Below are positions 3,829 through 26,266 of a DNA stretch of 26,433 bases, in pieces. Source of the stretch: a virus; the IMG/VR virus record IMGVR_UViG_3300022851_000097, positions 1-26,433 of that record; one strand, written 5' to 3'. Under the pieces are notes generated by a model. That model saw nothing but the letters and a program-made list of their open reading frames with translations. It did no database searches and had not been told where the DNA came from. Each line of letters begins with the position of its first letter. Position 1 is the first letter of the stretch. A program made the position numbers and the translations under genes.

Positions 3829-4686
3829 ATGGATGAAGTGTTAACTAGAAAAATGTTTAAGGCTAGATATTTTAAATCACTAAAGCCTACTATAAAACAT
3901 TTTCAAGAAGGTGGCCTTGGGTCACTATCACCAAAAGAAAAAGCTATTTATGCAGCAACACTAGCTGCTCCTTTGTTAGCAGGTAAAGGTAAAGGACTAA
4001 GTTCTACTTTAGCTTCATTAGGTGAAGGTGTTGCAAAACTACCATCCACTATTTTAGCTGTTGAAAAAGCAAAAGGGTCTGGAAAATCTATTAGAGATTT
4101 AACACCTGCTGAATTAAAAGCAAAAAGATTACCTGTTGGTACTTTTGCTCAAATAGATGGGGACGGAAAAATTACAGTTGTATCAAAACCTACTTCTAAA
4201 GAATTAGAAGAAAGAAGAGGGTTTCAAAGCACAAGAAGATTATTAGGTGATATCGCAACAGATTATGTAGAATTAGGTAAACCGGTTGGACCAGGAGATT
4301 TAAATAGACTAAGAGGATTTTTTGGTAAAGCAGCAGGAACTGATTATGCAAAATCATACGCAGGATTTAAAACTAAAATAGATCAAGCAACAATCTTCTT
4401 AACAAAAGCAGTTTCAGGTGCACAAGTATCAGACCAAGAAAGAGAAAGAATTAAAGAGCTGATTCCACAAGTGGGAGATACTGAAAGAGTATTTGAAGCT
4501 AAAATAGAAGCGCTTGAAAAATATTTAGGTACAGCACAAGATATATCAGAAAATACTGGTGGCGATTTCCAAACTGCTATTGAAATAATTGAGGGTCAAG
4601 GTGGGGTTTCGCAATTTATAGACTTTACTTCACCAGTTGGATTTGAAAAAACTAAATCAGGTGCAATTAAAATAACTACGGATTAA
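3829..4686 (+). CDS. Hypothetical virion-module protein
   Basis: The 285-residue product begins two bases after the previous stop. Residues 20-35 contain IKHFQEGGLGSLSPKE, a version of the K/E-G-G-hydrophobic motif seen in neighbouring proteins. An Ala/Gly-rich, weakly hydrophobic stretch follows (YAATLAAPLLAGKGKGL, about 41-57). The rest is charged and predicted largely helical, with a Glu/Arg segment around residues 190-230. No known catalytic motif is visible. Its place between the gp14-like protein and the 874-residue protein points to an internal or ejected virion component. Function not recognised. Confidence 0.55.
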   Translation: MDEVLTRKMFKARYFKSLKPTIKHFQEGGLGSLSPKEKAIYAATLAAPLLAGKGKGLSSTLASLGEGVAKLPSTILAVEKAKGSGKSIRDLTPAELKAKRLPVGTFAQIDGDGKITVVSKPTSKELEERRGFQSTRRLLGDIATDYVELGKPVGPGDLNRLRGFFGKAAGTDYAKSYAGFKTKIDQATIFLTKAVSGAQVSDQERERIKELIPQVGDTERVFEAKIEALEKYLGTAQDISENTGGDFQTAIEIIEGQGGVSQFIDFTSPVGFEKTKSGAIKITTD

Positions 4687-8259: not shown

Positions 8260-9628
8260 CAGACAATTCAATTTTATTCTCAAGATTGTGTAATACCATT
8301 TGATCAATAGTATCTCTACAAATTATATCAATATAAGTTACTTGAGATTTCTGTCCTATTCTGTGAGCCCTATCTTCACTTTGTTGACGGACCTCTAGGT
8401 TATAAGAATTACTAAAATAGATTACATACTTAGCGGCAGTTAAGGTTAAGCCGTAACCTCCTACTGTTGGATTACCAACTAGGAACCTACACTTGTCATC
8501 GTTTTGAAATTTCTCCACTGCTTGATTACGATCTTCAACGGAATCTTTTCCATAGATAGATACTACAGAATCTACACCATAGGTTTCAGCTAACTTACTT
8601 TTAATACTTTCAATGTTATGAACATAGTTTGCCCAGATAATACATTTGTCTTCAGTCTCTTCTATTATATTCATCAACTCTTTTAGTTTTGCATTTGTTT
8701 TAAAATCAATAATGTTACCTTCATTAGTTTTTACAAAACCATTTGTCACCTGTTGTAGTTTTAGTAATTCAGTTAACTTATTATTGTAAGACACCTCTTC
8801 ATCTTTCATTATCATAAGTGCAGTAATCTTTAATCTGTCATAAGCTTGTCTTTGTTCCTCTGGCATATCTACATATCTTTGTACATACATTTTCTCAGGT
8901 AGATCTAAACAATCTTTTTTTCTAACTCGATAGGAAAAGTTTTTTAATTTATATTCTAACTCTTCAAGATTAATATAGTACTTAGGGATTTGAATATTAT
9001 ACCCTCCTCTTTCTATACTAAACATCACAGCATACTTTGATTTAAATACTGTAAAGCTTTCATAACCTAATAATTTTTTATCTAAGAAAGCACACTGAGA
9101 AAATAAATCTAAGGGTGACTTAGTTATAGGAGAGCCTGTAAGTATTCTTTTATATCTAGCAAGTTGTCCTAATTTAATTATTGATTTAGTTCTAGAAGCC
9201 CTTAAATTTTTAATAGAAGTACTCTCATCTAATATAATCATACTTCTCATCCCATGTTTTTGTAATTTAGATTCTAACCATTTCTTACCTGAAGCATGAG
9301 ATAATGCTTCAACATTCATTAAAACAAATGTAAGTTTTTTAGCATCCATCTTAAATGTTTTATCTTTAGTTACTTTCCAAATATAAATATTAGTCTCCTC
9401 TGGACAATGTATATCTATTTCTTTTTTCCAATTTTGATAAACAGAGTTTGGTGCAATAACAAAAACATAATCTATCTTTTGATCTTGAAATAAGTAAGCT
9501 GCATTGTCTATAGCAACTTTTGTTTTACCTGTTCCCATCTCCATAAAATAAGCAAAATTATGAGGTTTAGCCCCTTCCATTAATGAATGTCTTTGGTGCT
9601 TAAATGGTTCTGTTTTATATTTATACAT
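8222..9628 (-). CDS. SNF2-family (superfamily 2) DNA helicase/translocase
   Basis: The protein has all the SF2/SNF2 motifs. From the ATG at 9628: motif I MGTGKT (residues 31-36), Ia VIAPNSVYQNW, motif II DEST (134-137), motif III LTGSP (163-167), IV CIIWANYVHNIESI, V NPTVGGYGLTLTAA, and VI RQQSEDRAHRIGQ. SNF2-type phage helicases couple ATP hydrolysis to movement on duplex DNA and assist replication or recombination. An in-frame TTG at 9658 would add ten residues, but no ribosome site supports it. It is the only leftward gene among the replication genes, and its tail overlaps the exonuclease gene by 38 bases. Confidence 0.9.
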   Translation of the reverse strand: MYKYKTEPFKHQRHSLMEGAKPHNFAYFMEMGTGKTKVAIDNAAYLFQDQKIDYVFVIAPNSVYQNWKKEIDIHCPEETNIYIWKVTKDKTFKMDAKKLTFVLMNVEALSHASGKKWLESKLQKHGMRSMIILDESTSIKNLRASRTKSIIKLGQLARYKRILTGSPITKSPLDLFSQCAFLDKKLLGYESFTVFKSKYAVMFSIERGGYNIQIPKYYINLEELEYKLKNFSYRVRKKDCLDLPEKMYVQRYVDMPEEQRQAYDRLKITALMIMKDEEVSYNNKLTELLKLQQVTNGFVKTNEGNIIDFKTNAKLKELMNIIEETEDKCIIWANYVHNIESIKSKLAETYGVDSVVSIYGKDSVEDRNQAVEKFQNDDKCRFLVGNPTVGGYGLTLTAAKYVIYFSNSYNLEVRQQSEDRAHRIGQKSQVTYIDIICRDTIDQMVLHNLENKIELSAKTLGEQVQKWL

Positions 9629-17655: not shown

Positions 17656-17868
17656 TTAAACTTCTAATATTTTTCGACAAACAAATTTTGTATAAATTTC
17701 ATGTTCATTTACTTCTTTTTTACCAATTTCTTGAAGGATGTCTATAGACTTTTTATACCCATCTATATGACAGGTATATATATCTTCATAAGGTTTTTCA
17801 ATTTGAAGGGGAGGCATACAGGTATTTGCAGTTATTGAACAAACATAAATTATTAAAATTATTTTCAT
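17656..17868 (-). CDS. Small exported Cys-rich phage protein
   Basis: This is the first gene of the leftward operon, 70 residues. It has the N-terminus MKIILIIYVCSITANTCMPP (basic, hydrophobic, then a small-residue region), a plausible short signal peptide. Cysteines follow in Y-T-C-H-I-D-G-Y-K-K-S and F-V-C-R-K. The pattern V-C-S..x-x-T-C-M-P-P..C..G-Y-x-x-S..F-x-C matches small proteins I recall from pelagic phage genomes, function unknown. It may act at the host envelope. Its start codon lies next to the divergent promoter at 17868-17924. Confidence 0.6.
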   Translation of the reverse strand: MKIILIIYVCSITANTCMPPLQIEKPYEDIYTCHIDGYKKSIDILQEIGKKEVNEHEIYTKFVCRKILEV

Positions 17869-17924
17869 TGACTTTTAATTACATCCCATGTAATTAAGAT
17901 ATCATAATAAAAAGTAACTAACAA
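17868..17924. promoter_or_regulatory. Divergent promoter pair with palindromic ATCCCAT operator
   Basis: Rightward: TTGACT (17868-17873), 17 bases, then TAATTA (17891-17896). Leftward: TTGTTA (17919-17924 read on minus), 17 bases, then TATCTT (17896-17901). Between and across them lies a perfect inverted repeat, arms TTAATTACAT (17875-17884) and ATGTAATTAA (17888-17897), with CCC as centre. The palindrome sits in the spacer and -10 of the rightward promoter and over the -10 and start point of the leftward one, so a bound protein could block both. The rightward gene has AGGGT at 17925-17929 before ATG 17935. The same ATCCCATG core occurs in promoters at 22495, 23794 and 25276. Confidence 0.7.
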
Positions 17925-17934
17925 TAGGGTACAT

Positions 17935-18120
17935 ATGAACACAAGTGAATGGAGAGACATAGTAAAAGAAGCTAATGATGGTATCAAAGCTTTAGGTGAA
18001 GAGGTAGTTGCACTTAGAAAAGAAAACAAAGAACTTAAGAAACAAGTTGCTAACCAACCTTTACTACTAACAGAGGATATGGAAATTAAAACACCAACAG
18101 ATGGAAGAGAGTTAATATAA
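17935..18120 (+). CDS. Small acidic coiled-coil protein
   Basis: This 61-residue protein is the first gene of the rightward regulatory operon. Residues 5-40 form one long charged helix with heptad spacing (IKALGEEVVALRKENKELKKQVANQ), followed by a short tail. Its ribosome site is AGGGT. Its stop overlaps the next ATG by one base (TAATG at 18118-18122). A coiled-coil partner of a DNA-binding protein is possible; no direct evidence. Confidence 0.55.
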   Translation: MNTSEWRDIVKEANDGIKALGEEVVALRKENKELKKQVANQPLLLTEDMEIKTPTDGRELI

Positions 18121-18314
18121 TGGACATAAATAAATGGAGATCAGTAGCAGTTAAAAAAGAAGATTATTTATTATTAAAAAAAATATGTGAAGATAAATAC
18201 AGAGCGCCAGGAGCTATGGTATCTAAGCTAATACATAATCATATTGAGTATGAAGCTAAGAAAAACAAAACTCCAATAGAAGTCTTTAAAAGAAAACTAT
18301 TAACGGGGATTTAA
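18120..18314 (+). CDS. Ribbon-helix-helix (Arc/CopG-like) DNA-binding protein candidate
   Basis: This 64-residue protein fits the RHH pattern: strand WRSVAVK, helix A KEDYLLLKKICEDKY, a turn R-A-P-G, and helix B AMVSKLIHNHIEYEAKKN, with the hydrophobic spacing and the V-S-x-L-I helix start usual for CopG/Arc repressors. RHH proteins bind as dimers to palindromes through the strand pair. It is the second gene after the palindromic operator at 17875-17897, so autoregulation is a natural guess. The fold call comes from pattern only; no close relative is recalled. Confidence 0.55.
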   Translation: MDINKWRSVAVKKEDYLLLKKICEDKYRAPGAMVSKLIHNHIEYEAKKNKTPIEVFKRKLLTGI

Positions 18315-18317
18315 AAT

Positions 18318-18551
18318 ATGATAACGGAAGATGATTTAAAGAGAGTTGATAGTAGAGTTAAAGCAAAAGAACTTTTCACCATTGAATTAGATCATGCTAC
18401 TAACACTCTTACCCTTACCGTAAATGGTAAGGTAATGAATATAGCTAAGACATATAAAGCAGAACCTTTGTTTGAAAAAATGTTAAAGATTGCAAAATTT
18501 AAATTCTTGAAGATGAGGGATGAGAAAAGAAAGGAGTTTATTGAAAATTAG
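18318..18551 (+). CDS. Small hypothetical protein of the regulatory operon
   Basis: This 77-residue protein lies three bases after the RHH candidate. It has an N-terminal charged helix, a pair of strands (LFTIELDHATNTLTLTVNGKVM), and a C-terminal basic helix FEKMLKIAKFKFLKMRDEKRKEF. No signal peptide. Not recognised; kept because of spacing, a good ATG and composition like its neighbours. Confidence 0.55.
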   Translation: MITEDDLKRVDSRVKAKELFTIELDHATNTLTLTVNGKVMNIAKTYKAEPLFEKMLKIAKFKFLKMRDEKRKEFIEN

Positions 18552-18633: not shown

Positions 18634-19332
18634 ATGACAAATGATTATAGAGTTAAAATAACAATAAGAAACGAACGAATACTAAAACTAATTGAAGACC
18701 AGGGATATGTTAGTGTTAGAAAATTTTGTGAAGCACAAAAAATAGAATACCAAAGAACAACAGAATTAATTAGTGGTAAACTTAAACCCGTTAAAGATAA
18801 TGGTGAGCTATCTTATACATGTAGCCAACTATTAAAAGTTTTAGGGGCGGAGTTTGAAGATTGCTTTACACCTAGACAAATGAAAGGATTTAATAAAAGA
18901 TCTTTTGAAATTAAAGTTAAAGAAGAAAGTCTTAAAGCGCTTATTAACCCAACTGTTAATCAAGAGATGAAAATGATTGAACAGGATGCAAAGAATAATA
19001 TTCGTTATGCAATTGAGATGGGCCTTGAACCTAGAGAAGCTGCCATGCTTAAAATGAAGTTTGGCTTTGATGATGGCCATGAACAAACGTTAGAACAAAT
19101 TGGTACAACTTTTGGAGTATCTAGAGAAAGAGTTAGGCAGATCATTGCTAAGGCTAAACGTAGAATGTCTCATCCAAGTGTTATGAGACAAATATTAAAA
19201 GCAGGAGCAGATGAAGTGTTTAATATACAAAATTTACCTAATCATTTAAAAAGACTTAAAAAAGAAAATGATGCGGATATGGATATGGATGATTCTTTTT
19301 TAGAACGGTTAAGTAAAAAACATTTAAACTAA
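18634..19332 (+). CDS. Sigma-70 region 4 protein with N-terminal helix-turn-helix-like domain
   Basis: Residues 130-185 are a clear sigma-70 region 4: EPREAAMLKMKFGFDDGHEQ is followed by T-L-E-Q-I-G-x-x-F-G-V-S-R-E-R-V-R-Q-I and K-x-R-R-M-x-H-P-S, including the -35-recognition helix. There is no region 2 or 3, so it cannot melt a -10 by itself. The N-terminus (DYRVKITIRNERILKLIEDQGY, cut at 1-24 by function; then KFCEAQ and ISGKLKP) matches the XRE-like domain found in related phage proteins. It probably redirects host RNA polymerase or binds DNA as a regulator of middle or late genes. Ribosome site AAGAGGT. Length 232. Confidence 0.85.
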   Translation: MTNDYRVKITIRNERILKLIEDQGYVSVRKFCEAQKIEYQRTTELISGKLKPVKDNGELSYTCSQLLKVLGAEFEDCFTPRQMKGFNKRSFEIKVKEESLKALINPTVNQEMKMIEQDAKNNIRYAIEMGLEPREAAMLKMKFGFDDGHEQTLEQIGTTFGVSRERVRQIIAKAKRRMSHPSVMRQILKAGADEVFNIQNLPNHLKRLKKENDADMDMDDSFLERLSKKHLN

Positions 19333-21093: not shown

Positions 21094-21312
21094 TTCCTAG
21101 TACGTTTCCTTAGAAAAAAAAAATAAAAAAAATATTTGTAGGGGTTTTTTACTGGGAAACTAGGAAAAACGTTGATATATAACACTTCTAGAGCATTTTT
21201 CACTAGGAAAACACTGGGAAGATTCCTAGTAGTTCTGGGAAAAAAAATACAGAGAGGCCATTTTCTGCTAAAAAAAAATAAAAAATATATTTGTAAGGAA
21301 GTGTACTAGGAA
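21094..21312. repeat. Array of eight ACTRGGAA boxes (iterons) upstream of terS
   Basis: Direct copies: ACTGGGAA 21151-21158 and 21213-21220; ACTAGGAA 21159-21166, 21202-21209 and 21305-21312; TCTGGGAA 21234-21241. Inverted copies TTCCTAGT: 21094-21101 and 21223-21230. Four boxes at 21202, 21213, 21223 and 21234 are 10-11 bases apart, on one face of the helix. terS starts 24 bases after the last box. Binding by TerS, an initiator or a regulator is inference. Confidence 0.7.
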
Positions 21313-21855: not shown

Positions 21856-21942
21856 ATGACAGTGTTTAACGAAGTTCATAATAGTCATTTAAATTCATCT
21901 GTTGGTATTGTTTCAATTTTAATAGATAATAAAAATGAATAA
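21856..21942 (+). CDS. Tiny hypothetical protein after terS
   Basis: This 28-codon frame starts at ATG 21856, preceded by GAAGG at 21845-21849. The product (MTVFNEVHNSHLNSSVGI, then a hydrophobic-acidic tail) has no known motif. Its end enters the first unit of the 30-base tandem repeat. It could be the remnant of a longer gene. Low confidence. Confidence 0.3.
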   Translation: MTVFNEVHNSHLNSSVGIVSILIDNKNE

Positions 21943-22021
21943 TAGACTATGCATATGGGATAAAATGAATAATAGACTATCCATATGGCATTAAATGAAA
22001 AGCTGACTATACATATGGGAT
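21932..22021 (+). repeat. Three 30-base tandem repeats with start-codon motif
   Basis: Units at 21932-21961, 21962-21991 and 21992-22021 share A-A-A-T-G-A-A, then GACTATnCATATGG and a closing G/C-A-T. GACTAT recurs at exactly 30-base steps (21945, 21975, 22005). A fourth, cut unit supplies the ATG of the gene at 22025. Because 30 is a multiple of three, the first two units also read as a 19-residue frame (21935-21994) with repeated M-N-N-R-L. Confidence 0.85.
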
Positions 22022-22024
22022 TAT

Positions 22025-22351
22025 ATGAAAACTAAAAAAATAAAAAAAGGATCTAAAATTTTAAATTTTAATTTTAAAAATCTAGACAATAATATTTTAG
22101 ATTATCCCTTTGTAGAAATAAAGTGGCTTGATATTGAGGGTGATAGTGGTTGGTCAGATACTAAAAGTTTGAACAAAGAAAAATTACCAACGTGTGTTTC
22201 TAAAGGTTATTTATTATCTCAATCAAAAGGTATTACAAGAATTTTTACTGATTATATAGAAACCAAAAATAAACCTACGTTTGATAATATTGGTAATACT
22301 ACAATAATTCCAACGGCAGTAATTCAATCAATTAAAGAAATAAAAATTTAA
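22025..22351 (+). CDS. Small accessory phage protein, strand-rich
   Basis: This 108-residue protein has a Lys-rich N-terminus, then FVEIKWLDIEGDSGWSD, a middle CVSKGYLLSQSKGITRIFTDYI, and the ending I-I-P-T-A-V-I-Q-S-I-K-E-I. The order V-x-W-x-D...W, then S-K/T-G-x-L-L, then I-P-x-x-x-I-x-x-I is shared by many short phage proteins of unknown function. It starts in the fourth partial repeat, without a clear ribosome site, so the repeats may carry its expression signals. Confidence 0.6.
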   Translation: MKTKKIKKGSKILNFNFKNLDNNILDYPFVEIKWLDIEGDSGWSDTKSLNKEKLPTCVSKGYLLSQSKGITRIFTDYIETKNKPTFDNIGNTTIIPTAVIQSIKEIKI

Positions 22352-22494: not shown

Positions 22495-22534
22495 TTGACA
22501 TCTATTTTATAATATCATATCTTCATGGGATATG
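22495..22534 (+). promoter_or_regulatory. Promoter with ATCCCATG-type site (inverted)
   Basis: TTGACA (22495-22500), 17 bases, TATCTT (22518-22523), then CATGGGATATG (22524-22534), whose reverse complement contains ATCCCATG. The leftward promoter at 17896-17924 has the same order: TATCTT then an ACATGGGATGT box over the start point. It drives the gene at 22569, which has AAAGGAG at 22553-22559. Confidence 0.65.
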
Positions 22535-22568: not shown

Positions 22569-22910
22569 ATGGGCTACACTAATTACTGGCATAAATATAA
22601 CGACTTTACCGATACAGAATGGAAACAAATCAAAGAGGAATTTAGCTATATCAAAACAGTTGTTGGTCATTTAATTGAAGACCAAAGCACAGAAGATATA
22701 ATTAAGTTTAATGGTGTTGGAGATAATGGACATGAAGATTTTTATCTTAACAAAGAAGCAAAAACACCCTTTGATAAAACTTGGGCAGGGCAAGACGTGT
22801 CTTTTGATTTTTGCAAAACTAAAGAAAAACCTTATGACATAGCCGTATGGTACTTATTAACTTTTATTAATAGGATTTGTCCACACTTTGCCATAAGCAG
22901 AGATAGATAA
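22569..22910 (+). CDS. MGYTxYW-family phage protein
   Basis: The 113-residue protein starts with MGYTNYWHKYNDFTDTEW, the hallmark of a widespread phage family (MGYTHYW). It also has its other signatures: a central F-N-G-V-G-D-N-G-H-E-D-F and F-D-F-C-K-T-K-E-K-P-Y-D, followed by a helix ending in a late aromatic-rich segment. Function is unknown; the family sits among early and accessory genes of phages and prophages. It has its own promoter and a good ribosome site. Complete at both ends. Confidence 0.8.
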   Translation: MGYTNYWHKYNDFTDTEWKQIKEEFSYIKTVVGHLIEDQSTEDIIKFNGVGDNGHEDFYLNKEAKTPFDKTWAGQDVSFDFCKTKEKPYDIAVWYLLTFINRICPHFAISRDR

Positions 22911-23793: not shown

Positions 23794-23822
23794 TTGACTT
23801 CTTATTATATCCCATTAAATTG
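23794..23822 (+). promoter_or_regulatory. Promoter with ATCCCAT spacer box
   Basis: TTGACT (23794-23799), then ATCCCATT at 23809-23816, then a weak -10 AAATTG (23817-23822; spacing 17) or TTAAAT (23815-23820). The -35 and box keep the distance seen at 17868 (15 bases start to start). It precedes the gene at 23870. Confidence 0.5.
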
Positions 23823-23869
23823 AGAGAGTGTTAAACATAAAAAAACAACTTAACCAAGAGGTAAATCAA

Positions 23870-24202
23870 ATGACAACACAAAAAATAGTACAAATAAAAA
23901 AAACAAAAACACTTTCACCTATTGAAAATGTAAAATTATTCAAAGCGTGTGAGTTAAACGATAGCAGAAAAACATATAATAAATTATGGATTGATGTTAA
24001 ATCAGAGGCTTTAGAAATAGTTGATAGTTTAGGTGGTTCAATTATTAATAAATATAAGTCTAAATCTTATTATATAGAGATAGCTAAAAAGAATACCACT
24101 AGATTTGATGTCAAATCATTTAAAGAACAGCACCCACACTTATATGATAAATTTATTGTTGAGGGTGAAAGCGTTGAACTTAAAACAAAGATTGTAAAAT
24201 AA
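23870..24202 (+). CDS. Small accessory phage protein
   Basis: The start is ATG 23870, with AAGAGG (23856-23861) upstream; a GTG at 23828 would include that site. The 110-residue product has a Lys-rich start, a helix KLFKACELNDSRKTYNKLWI, and a strand region SKSYYIEIAKKNTTRFDVKSFKEQHPHLYDKFI, cut here by function. The F-D-x-x-x-F-K-x-x-x-P-x-L-Y-x-K-F ending recurs in short phage proteins I have seen, with unknown role. Its stop overlaps the next ATG by one base. Confidence 0.6.
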   Translation: MTTQKIVQIKKTKTLSPIENVKLFKACELNDSRKTYNKLWIDVKSEALEIVDSLGGSIINKYKSKSYYIEIAKKNTTRFDVKSFKEQHPHLYDKFIVEGESVELKTKIVK

Positions 24203-24965: not shown

Positions 24966-25153
24966 TAACCTTGCATATGGGGAATTTTCATTTTCATTAA
25001 CATTAACATTAGAAAAAAAATAACTAACCTTGCATATGGAGAATTTTCACTTCTATTAACATTAACATTAGTAAAAAAATAACTAACCTTGTATATGGAG
25101 AATTTTGACTTTGTTTACATTAACATAAAATCAATATCTGACTATCCATATGG
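24966..25153. repeat. 59-base tandem repeats with CATATGG and TTAACATTAACATTA
   Basis: TTGCATATGG (24971-24980; 25030-25039) and TTGTATATGG (25089-25098) recur at 59-base steps, each followed by G-A-A-T-T-T-T and, in the first two units, ATTAACATTAACATTAG, then an A tract and TAACTAAC. A shorter fourth unit ends in GACTATCCATATGG (25140-25153). Confidence 0.8.
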
Positions 25154-25162
25154 AGATATATA

Positions 25163-25275: not shown

Positions 25276-25304
25276 TTGACAGCTATTACATCCCATGTTA
25301 ATAA
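25276..25304 (+). promoter_or_regulatory. Strong sigma-70 promoter with ATCCCATG box
   Basis: TTGACA (25276-25281), a 17-base spacer holding ATTACATCCCATGT, then TAATAA (25299-25304). ATCCCATG is at 25290-25297, directly before the -10 and overlapping an extended TGt. The gene at 25332 follows with AAGGA upstream of its ATG. Confidence 0.75.
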
Positions 25305-25331
25305 GATGCATTAACCAACTAAGGATGTAAA

Positions 25332-25631
25332 ATGACTAAAAAAATAAGATCTAAAAAAAATAATTTATTTAATTATTTTGCTTGTGATCATAAAGACTTA
25401 AGCAAAGATTATTTAAAAAGCTGTAACAATTTTTTTAAAGAAATAAAAAAAAATAACGACCCGTTCGGCTTTAAAAAAGCAATTGATACCAGCGTGATTG
25501 ATAAGCTTACGCCAAAAGAATTAGACGAAGCAATGGAAGCGGCTGGCCTGGGTTTGAGTCGTGACGACTTCAGCGATGGCGGGGCGGATCTACAGGACCT
25601 TAAAGAAATAATAGAGGGGGATCAATCATGA
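25332..25631 (+). CDS. Hypothetical protein of the GP88 cassette
   Basis: This 99-residue protein has an N-terminal Lys/Arg-rich part with C-D-H and S-C-N-N-F-F, and an acidic C-terminus L-T-P-K-E-L-D-E-A-M-E-A-A-G-L-G-L-S-R-D-D-F-S-D-G-G. Codons from about 25450 on use GCG, CTG, CGT and GAC much more than neighbouring genes, suggesting recent arrival. Its stop overlaps the GP88 gene's ATG (ATGA), so the two are coupled. Function not recognised. Confidence 0.6.
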   Translation: MTKKIRSKKNNLFNYFACDHKDLSKDYLKSCNNFFKEIKKNNDPFGFKKAIDTSVIDKLTPKELDEAMEAAGLGLSRDDFSDGGADLQDLKEIIEGDQS

Positions 25632-26266
25632 TTCATATATCAAAAATGACCGGAAAGCTGGAAGGCTTTCAGGCCATCAGCACAAATACAATTACAAATT
25701 CTTATTGTAATAAAAATTATAATAAACAAGATCCGAATAATATTTGTACTTTTTGTTATTCAAACGAGATGTTAAAAACATTTAGAAAAAACATGGCGCC
25801 AGCTCTTCAGCGTAACACTGATTTACTAGCGGCTAAGGTTTTGCATCCTGACGGCTTGCCAGTTATAAACAGCGCTTTTTTTCGCTTCAACGCTCACGGT
25901 GAATTGATTAACGAAATCAATTTAATTAATTACGTAAATATTGCGATTAAAAACCCGCATTGTAACTTCAGCCTATGGACCAAAAGATACGACATAGTAG
26001 CCAAATATTTCAAAAAAAATGATAAGCCTAAGAATTTTATTTTGATTTATTCAACGCCCCGGATCAATCACATCCTGGATAAGATCCCGCCGTATTTTGA
26101 TAAAACATTTTCAACGGTCCCTGAGTCTCAGCATCAGGACCGGCAAAACTGTACGGGCCAAAAATGCAAGGATTGCCTGTTATGCTATAAGCTGGACACG
26201 GTCACCGTGATTGTTGAGAAGGTGAAGACCTACGGCAAAAAGAAATTTAAAAAGGCGGGTTTATAA
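25628..26266 (+). CDS. GP88 family protein with Cys clusters
   Basis: The 212-residue protein starts with MIHISKMTGKLEGFQAISTN and contains C-x(2)-C-Y (Cys40, Cys43) and Cys27. Then R-F-N-A-H-G-E-L-I-N (87-96), L-W-T-K-R, L-I-Y-S-x-P, and the C-terminal N-C-T-G-Q-K-C-K-D-C-L-L-C-Y (Cys175, 180, 183, 186). These fit the phage and plasmid GP88 family as I know it, a putative metal or iron-sulfur protein of unknown activity. The ribosome site is the GAGGGGG at 25614-25620. Coupled to the membrane peptide after it (TAATG). Higher G+C than the rest of the window. Confidence 0.8.
   Translation: MIHISKMTGKLEGFQAISTNTITNSYCNKNYNKQDPNNICTFCYSNEMLKTFRKNMAPALQRNTDLLAAKVLHPDGLPVINSAFFRFNAHGELINEINLINYVNIAIKNPHCNFSLWTKRYDIVAKYFKKNDKPKNFILIYSTPRINHILDKIPPYFDKTFSTVPESQHQDRQNCTGQKCKDCLLCYKLDTVTVIVEKVKTYGKKKFKKAGL

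Follow-up and report, generated by a model that had tools for sequence, protein, structure and literature searches.

A pelagiphage ribbon-helix-helix (RHH) protein is probably an autorepressor: bound at a conserved 18-bp operator, it would cover the -35/-10/start region of the promoter of its own operon and of several accessory promoters and so shut them off. This reading is drawn from sequence: the operator is conserved, it is placed in promoters, it is linked to the RHH gene, and divergent homologues of the protein stand behind altered boxes. The original prediction, in which one DNA-binding protein, the product of the gene at 18120, controls a phage regulon and regulates itself, is supported by the non-coding bias of the sites, their linkage to the RHH gene at 79 of 79 loci, and the protein-box pairs of sister phage groups.

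The phage fragment and its relatives

The window, by which we mean the whole 26,433-nt stretch analyzed (IMG/VR record IMGVR_UViG_3300022851_000097), is by its sequence a 26.4-kb fragment of an HTVC023P-like pelagiphage. Megablast matched it to Pelagibacter phage HTVC023P (79.3% identity over 31% of the query, in replication genes), and the gene order runs from replication genes through the RHH operon and the small terminase gene to an accessory region. The host of pelagiphages is SAR11, an abundant ocean bacterium. HTVC027P, an isolate relative of the window phage, has been described as lytic. According to its published transcriptome, it has no RNA polymerase gene and its early genes are of unknown function (PMC12753301), which leaves room for a regulatory switch. 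The RHH operon and its promoter comprise the following features.

17656-17868 (minus strand): 70-aa gene in divergent orientation, hydrophobic at its N-terminus; may be controlled by O1
17868-17873 (plus strand): -35-like TTGACT of the RHH-operon promoter, overlapping the start codon of the divergent gene just listed
17883-17900 (plus strand): operator O1, ATCCCA-TGTAAT-TAAGAT, an exact 18-bp unit scoring 25.4 bits
17935-18120 (plus strand): first operon gene, 61 aa, coiled-coil-like, not conserved across relatives
18120-18314 (plus strand): RHH-like regulator, 64 aa, putative operator binder
18318-18551 (plus strand): 77-aa protein of unknown function, directly 3' of the RHH gene in 6/6 genomes compared

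The operator as an 18-bp inverted repeat

The operator had originally been described as an 8-bp box, ATCCCATG at 17883-17890, 25290-25297, and 22524-22531 (minus strand) and ATCCCATT at 23809-23816. All of these copies were found, and one further exact ATCCCATG, at 9249 inside the helicase coding sequence, had been overlooked. As proposed, the box begins 14-15 bases after the start of TTGAC (17868 to 17883, 15; 25276 to 25290, 14; 23794 to 23809, 15), and at the 22495 promoter TTGACA-17-TATCTT continues directly into an inverted box. The recurrence itself is real, since the window has four exact copies of ATCCCATG whereas 100 dinucleotide shuffles averaged 0.60 and never exceeded 3, but the 8-mer is only the left end of a longer unit. 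Because its one-mismatch copies are at chance level in the window (15 found, 14.8 expected), the 8-mer alone is a weak definition.

In aligned homologous IMG/VR promoters, TTGAC is followed after 10 bases (rarely 9 or 11) by ATCCCATRTANNTAAGAT. Judged from this alignment, the conserved unit is an 18-bp imperfect inverted repeat, ATCCCA-N6-TRAGAT, which occurs in the window at 17883-17900, 25290-25307, 22514-22531 (minus strand, 1 mismatch), and 23809-23826 (1 mismatch); the expectation per genome is 0.0-0.1 exact copies and 0.2-1.0 copies with one mismatch. The ATCCCA/TAAGAT dyad had a complementarity of 0.60, the highest among the centers tried (others roughly 0.05-0.5), and about 4/6 of its pairs are strictly complementary at the RHH promoters. 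At other sites the second half-site reads TGAGAT or TAGGAT and the repeat takes either orientation relative to the promoter, both of which strengthen the dyad reading. The distance from TTGAC to the site shifts by 1-2 bases and the spacing of the half-sites is fixed; in four contigs the left half is doubled in tandem, as in TATCCCATGTATCCCATG. Chance recurrence of a short AT-rich word would agree with the number of one-mismatch 8-mers in the window, but all of the evidence for the 18-bp unit speaks against it and conservation had already refuted it, so that we regard this explanation as practically negligible.

A palindrome with ten-base arms, TTAATTACAT-CCC-ATGTAATTAA at 17875-17897, had also been proposed. 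It is indeed present in the window but is not kept in relatives: among 45 distinct homologous promoters, a mean of 6.0/10 arm positions were paired (range 3-10). We therefore rejected the CCC-centered palindrome as the operator and regard it as a local accident. A search of viral contigs with TTGACN8ACATCCCATGT returned mostly unrelated matches.

Linkage of the operator to the RHH gene

We searched IMG/VR with the RHH protein and with the pattern TTGACN{8,11}ATCCCATNNANNTAAGAT, the latter being found in 114 stretches. The operator lies upstream of the RHH operon in more than 100 IMG/VR stretches, and sites orthologous to O1 are present in IMG/VR relatives and at HTVC023P 7951. Where operator-selected loci had about 0.45 kb or more of downstream sequence, the RHH gene was located 0.2-1.4 kb downstream with a single exception (L071, a different promoter); a few loci with only 0.33-0.43 kb end before the expected gene and were not scored. 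The protein-selected set consisted of 80 loci chosen by the RHH profile with no demand on the DNA, and the site followed TTGAC at 10-11 bases in all 79 that had enough upstream sequence (59 of them without mismatch under a slightly relaxed consensus), a sample that shares contigs with the operator-selected set and is thus not fully independent of it. In this sample, loci with the RHH gene and enough upstream sequence thus keep the box as well. The first genes of the operon vary from phage to phage. In many relatives (e.g., L002 7936-7980) the first operon gene begins 36 bases downstream of the first base of TTGAC, and the transcript may therefore have little or no leader.

Such linkage could also arise if the block were the site of another phage protein or of a SAR11-host protein and the RHH gene were merely a conserved neighbor, and other small neighbors are equally conserved (the products of 18318, 20165, and 20343 and the minus-strand operon). 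However, the TTGAC-spaced form of the pattern, to which the host-genome comparison applies, had 5 occurrences in 257 Gb of genomes from bacteria and archaea, and no genome with a SAR11 title was among them, against the 114 viral stretches. Furthermore, the HTVC027P and psg01 groups have divergent RHH homologues at the matching locus, each immediately after a box that differs from that of the window but is related to it. We consider another binder unlikely on these grounds.

The promoters of HTVC027P and psg01 contained no good matches to the operator. In both groups the divergent RHH homologues are encoded after the replication genes, as in the window, and the boxes are related to that of the window but altered (ATCCTATAT and TTCCCATAT). 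Across tens of IMG/VR loci for each type, HTVC027P-type homologues have an ATCCYATAT box a little after TTGAC and psg01-type homologues have TTCCCATATRTGAGAA-like sites after TTGCAA; some loci in the psg01-type set, where another coding sequence precedes the gene, lack such a box. In HTVC027P, ATCCTATAT occurs three times (0.8 expected), each time downstream of TTGACA and before gp21, gp36, or gp02. HTVC027P gp21 and the psg01 10602 homologue thus resemble the window regulator in their place after the replication genes, in the homologous RHH protein, and in a conserved box over their own promoter; they differ in the box itself, ATCCTATAT or TTCCCATATRTGAGAA instead of the ATCCCATRTANNTAAGAT of the window group. 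A cognate pair would be expected to change protein and box together, as is seen between these groups. One phage contig, L079, has both types of RHH gene, encoding a KWKSVA-type protein and a KYKSLAV protein like HTVC027P gp21; relative to its promoter start at 4023, they occupy offsets 530-731 and 1708-1909.

Assignment of the 18120-18314 product

The product of 18120-18314 is plausibly an RHH protein. Proteins of this kind have an N-terminal strand that reads the DNA and then two helices, and their dimers insert a two-stranded sheet into the major groove at half-sites. AlphaFold2 predicted an extended N-terminus followed by helices 13-24, 30-48, and 53-62 (pLDDT 78.6), with the helices as expected for the fold; DSSP assigned no strand in this monomer model, in which strand pairing formed only in a dimer would be invisible. 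The window protein matched no Pfam RHH model, and one of 23 orthologues matched RHH_5 (at 0.03). The profile of its family, however, aligned with that of the psg01 family (hhalign E=2e-7), in which 9/10 members matched Pfam RHH_1 near or below the Pfam cut-off (best E 3e-4); a genome search gave RHH_1 at 2.4e-4, below the cut-off. Because the window protein itself reaches no curated RHH model, the assignment runs through this chain of relatives. The top Foldseek match was a permuted single-chain Arc and was weak (E=3.0, probability 0.20), and a PDB sequence search with profiles of two RHH families gave nothing useful. The KWKSVA strand is nearly invariant among 60-odd distinct orthologues. A G-x-S/T/N turn is common but not universal in RHH proteins. 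This motif lies between the RHH helices (PMC2812701) and is not found in the window protein, which has G31-A32-M33; the HTVC027P homologues mostly have G-V/I-T at the inter-helix turn. In addition, the promoter of the operon carries an operator with repeated or inverted half-sites, a trait of autoregulating viral RHH repressors.

Further sites and their positions in promoters

Seven genomes, namely HTVC023P, the five long contigs G001-G005, and that of the window, were scanned with a matrix trained on the 45 distinct RHH promoters. In all, 21 sites reached 15 bits, compared with 1.2 in shuffles. After subtraction of the seven RHH-operon sites, 12 of the remaining 14 are non-coding (p about 1e-12, with a non-coding share of the sequence of about 7% and with HTVC023P 15174, between annotated genes, counted as non-coding), and the two coding sites fall in the same conserved stretch of one gene. 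Strong sites outside the RHH operons are thus not equally frequent within coding sequence. The two coding matches, at HTVC023P 49103 and G004 58132, score 15.1 bits and are ATCCRATGTTTATAAGAT-like; they probably reflect protein-coding constraint. In the window, the scores were 25.4 (17883), 19.4 (25290), 15.1 (22514), and 11.7 bits (23809), and the sites beyond O1 belong to three promoters.

22495-22523 (plus strand): sigma-70-like promoter TTGACA-17-TATCTT of the 22569 gene
22514-22531 (minus strand): operator O2, ATCCCATGAAGATATGAT on the minus strand, 15.1 bits, covering the -10 and the presumed start
22569-22910 (plus strand): 113-aa MGYTNYW protein behind O2
23794-23799 (plus strand): TTGACT of the third promoter
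23809-23826 (plus strand): weak operator O3, ATCCCATTAAATTGAGAG, 11.7 bits, with a similar promoter at G002 58262 (minus strand)
23871-24202 (plus strand): gene behind O3, for which ATG 23871 after AAGAGG is a likelier start than the listed GTG 23828
25276-25281 (plus strand): TTGACA of the fourth promoter
25290-25307 (plus strand): operator O4, ATCCCATGTTAATAAGAT, 19.4 bits, with a close counterpart at G002 59398-59415
25332-25631 (plus strand): 99-aa gene behind O4
25628-26266 (plus strand): GP88-family protein of the O4 operon (Pfam PF17338)

O3 is not significant by itself (11.7 bits against 11.0 for a coding chance match) and was retained because it is placed after TTGAC and has a similar site in the relative G002. 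The layout of O2 is repeated in G001-G005 and HTVC023P and defines a second promoter class (window 22495, HTVC023P 13014, and G001-G005), in which TTGACA (TTGACT in G004) is followed after about 16-17 bases by TATATT or TATCTT; this element passes straight into CATGGGAT or a sequence close to it, with the operator over the -10 and the start. This promoter is constant and the gene behind it is swapped: MGYTNYW in the window, the unrelated MGFDLTG in HTVC023P, G001, G003, and G005; G002 and G004 have a short ORF there. HTVC023P gp26, which by eye resembles the GP88-family protein of the window, is also behind an operator (15174), and at HTVC023P gp28 the operator occupies the spacer between TTGACT and TATAAA. 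At the RHH promoters the arrangement is TTGAC-N10-operator, with TATANN at the operator center (TGTANN in the window and HTVC023P). Relative to TTGACA promoters the operator takes either orientation, and it sits in the spacer or over the -10; from any of these positions a bound protein could be expected to obstruct polymerase. O1 may also control the divergent gene for the secreted peptide (17656-17868), but the TATCTT proposed as the -10 of that gene falls on the right half-site, and conservation of the half-site could by itself explain why TATCTT is kept.

These arrangements also bear on whether the block might itself be a promoter element, with TTGAC and a CCCATATA-like or TAAGAT -10 read by host RpoH or by a phage protein with sigma region 4 encoded at 18634-19332. 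CCCAT in the block resembles the sigma-32 -10 element, the phage does encode a sigma region 4 protein, and TAAGAT is -10-like, though at a spacing of 20-21 bp. On the other hand, reversed sites lie over complete TTGACA-TATATT promoters, one reversed site stands 10 bases after TTGAC, and the distance from TTGAC varies around the fixed half-sites. HTVC023P and G001-G005 have no homologue of the sigma-like protein and retain the sites, so we rejected a sigma-32-like -10 read by this sigma-region-4/HTH protein, and a promoter element of any such kind is very unlikely. We likewise rejected TAAGAT as the -10 of a MerR-like long-spacer promoter, since the half-site also occurs reversed and away from such spacing. 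The 18634-19332 gene (plus strand) encodes a 232-aa protein with sigma-70 region 4 (Pfam E 3.5e-12), an HTH-like N-terminal half, and no recognized region 2; only a minority of relatives have it (e.g., L010, L043, and L059).

Proposed mechanism and comparison with known systems

In the repression circuit that we favor, the RHH protein would bind as paired dimers to the two half-sites of ATCCCA-N6-TRAGAT, whose centers are 12 bp apart. The bound protein would keep host sigma-70 RNA polymerase off TTGAC-type promoters, since in these the repeat lies across the spacer, the -10, or the start region. The protein would thereby limit its own operon in a negative feedback and turn down at least two, probably three, accessory promoters (22495, 25276, and 23794), and the timing may be that of an early-gene shut-off.

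Autoregulated RHH proteins are typically repressors. A protein that binds the same site but mainly activates, or has a dual role, for example by realigning a long-spacer promoter, is nevertheless conceivable, as the RHH promoters have no ideal -10 at 17 bp from TTGAC (TATANN stands at 15 and TAAGAT at 21) and the archaeal-virus RHH protein AvtR is described as stimulatory at low concentration (PMC5569661). The second promoter class argues against this alternative, as its site over a near-consensus -10 and start is a repressing position, and so does the typical role of the protein family; we judge it improbable.

Repression by the RHH protein would make the circuit work like that of Arc or SvtR, and it is best filed with that known type of regulatory circuit. 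In P22 Arc, as here, the operator lies inside the promoter and has two half-sites separated by roughly one turn of the helix. Like Arc (Arc/MetJ/CopG), the pelagiphage regulator is a small phage RHH protein encoded in an operon that it is thought to repress; unlike Arc, it belongs to a pelagiphage with isolate relatives described as lytic (HTVC027P) and has several target promoters and a different half-site, and no sequence relation between the two was detected. SvtR of Sulfolobus rod-shaped virus SIRV1, likewise a small viral RHH factor, represses transcription from its own promoter, has three further binding sites on the genome of the virus, and recognizes an imperfect inverted repeat (PMC5569661), in all of which it resembles the proposed regulator. 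It differs in belonging to an archaeal virus and promoter and in its site; at its gp30 target, SvtR binds about 80 bases from the promoter elements, whereas the pelagiphage operator lies on them. The antitoxins RelB and MazE6, which autoregulate toxin-antitoxin operons, share RHH autoregulation via short repeated half-sites, MazE6 having an 18-bp operator (PMC9477884). In contrast to these antitoxins, no toxin partner was recognized in the pelagiphage operon and the targets are dispersed over the phage genome.

A wider proposal is that HTVC023P-type pelagiphages use co-diverging RHH/operator pairs of three specificities to time gene expression by switching off early and accessory promoters, with accessory genes swapped between phages behind the same switched promoter; we hold this tentatively, as somewhat short of an even chance. 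What makes the system interesting is how abundant the phage group is, together with the existence of three related protein-box pairs. The regulator and its operator offer a testable handle on the order of pelagiphage gene expression with host polymerase only, and the 18-bp tag locates regulated accessory genes in metagenomic phage genomes.

Other repeats in the window

Two sets of CATATGG tandem repeats were considered as further operators and rejected because they score below the threshold. Three 30-bp repeats, GACTATNCATATGGNAT, at 21933-22034 stand just before the 22025 gene and partly resemble the reversed operator. Three 59-bp repeats at 24966-25162 contain TTGYATATGGRGAATTTT and the related GACTATCCATATGGAGATATA; they could be replication iterons or sites of another regulator. 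In the AT-rich stretch 21094-21312, upstream of the small terminase gene, CTAGGAAA-type motifs recur, and 21094-21116 and 21290-21312 form the arms of an inverted repeat; the stretch is possibly a packaging or origin signal.
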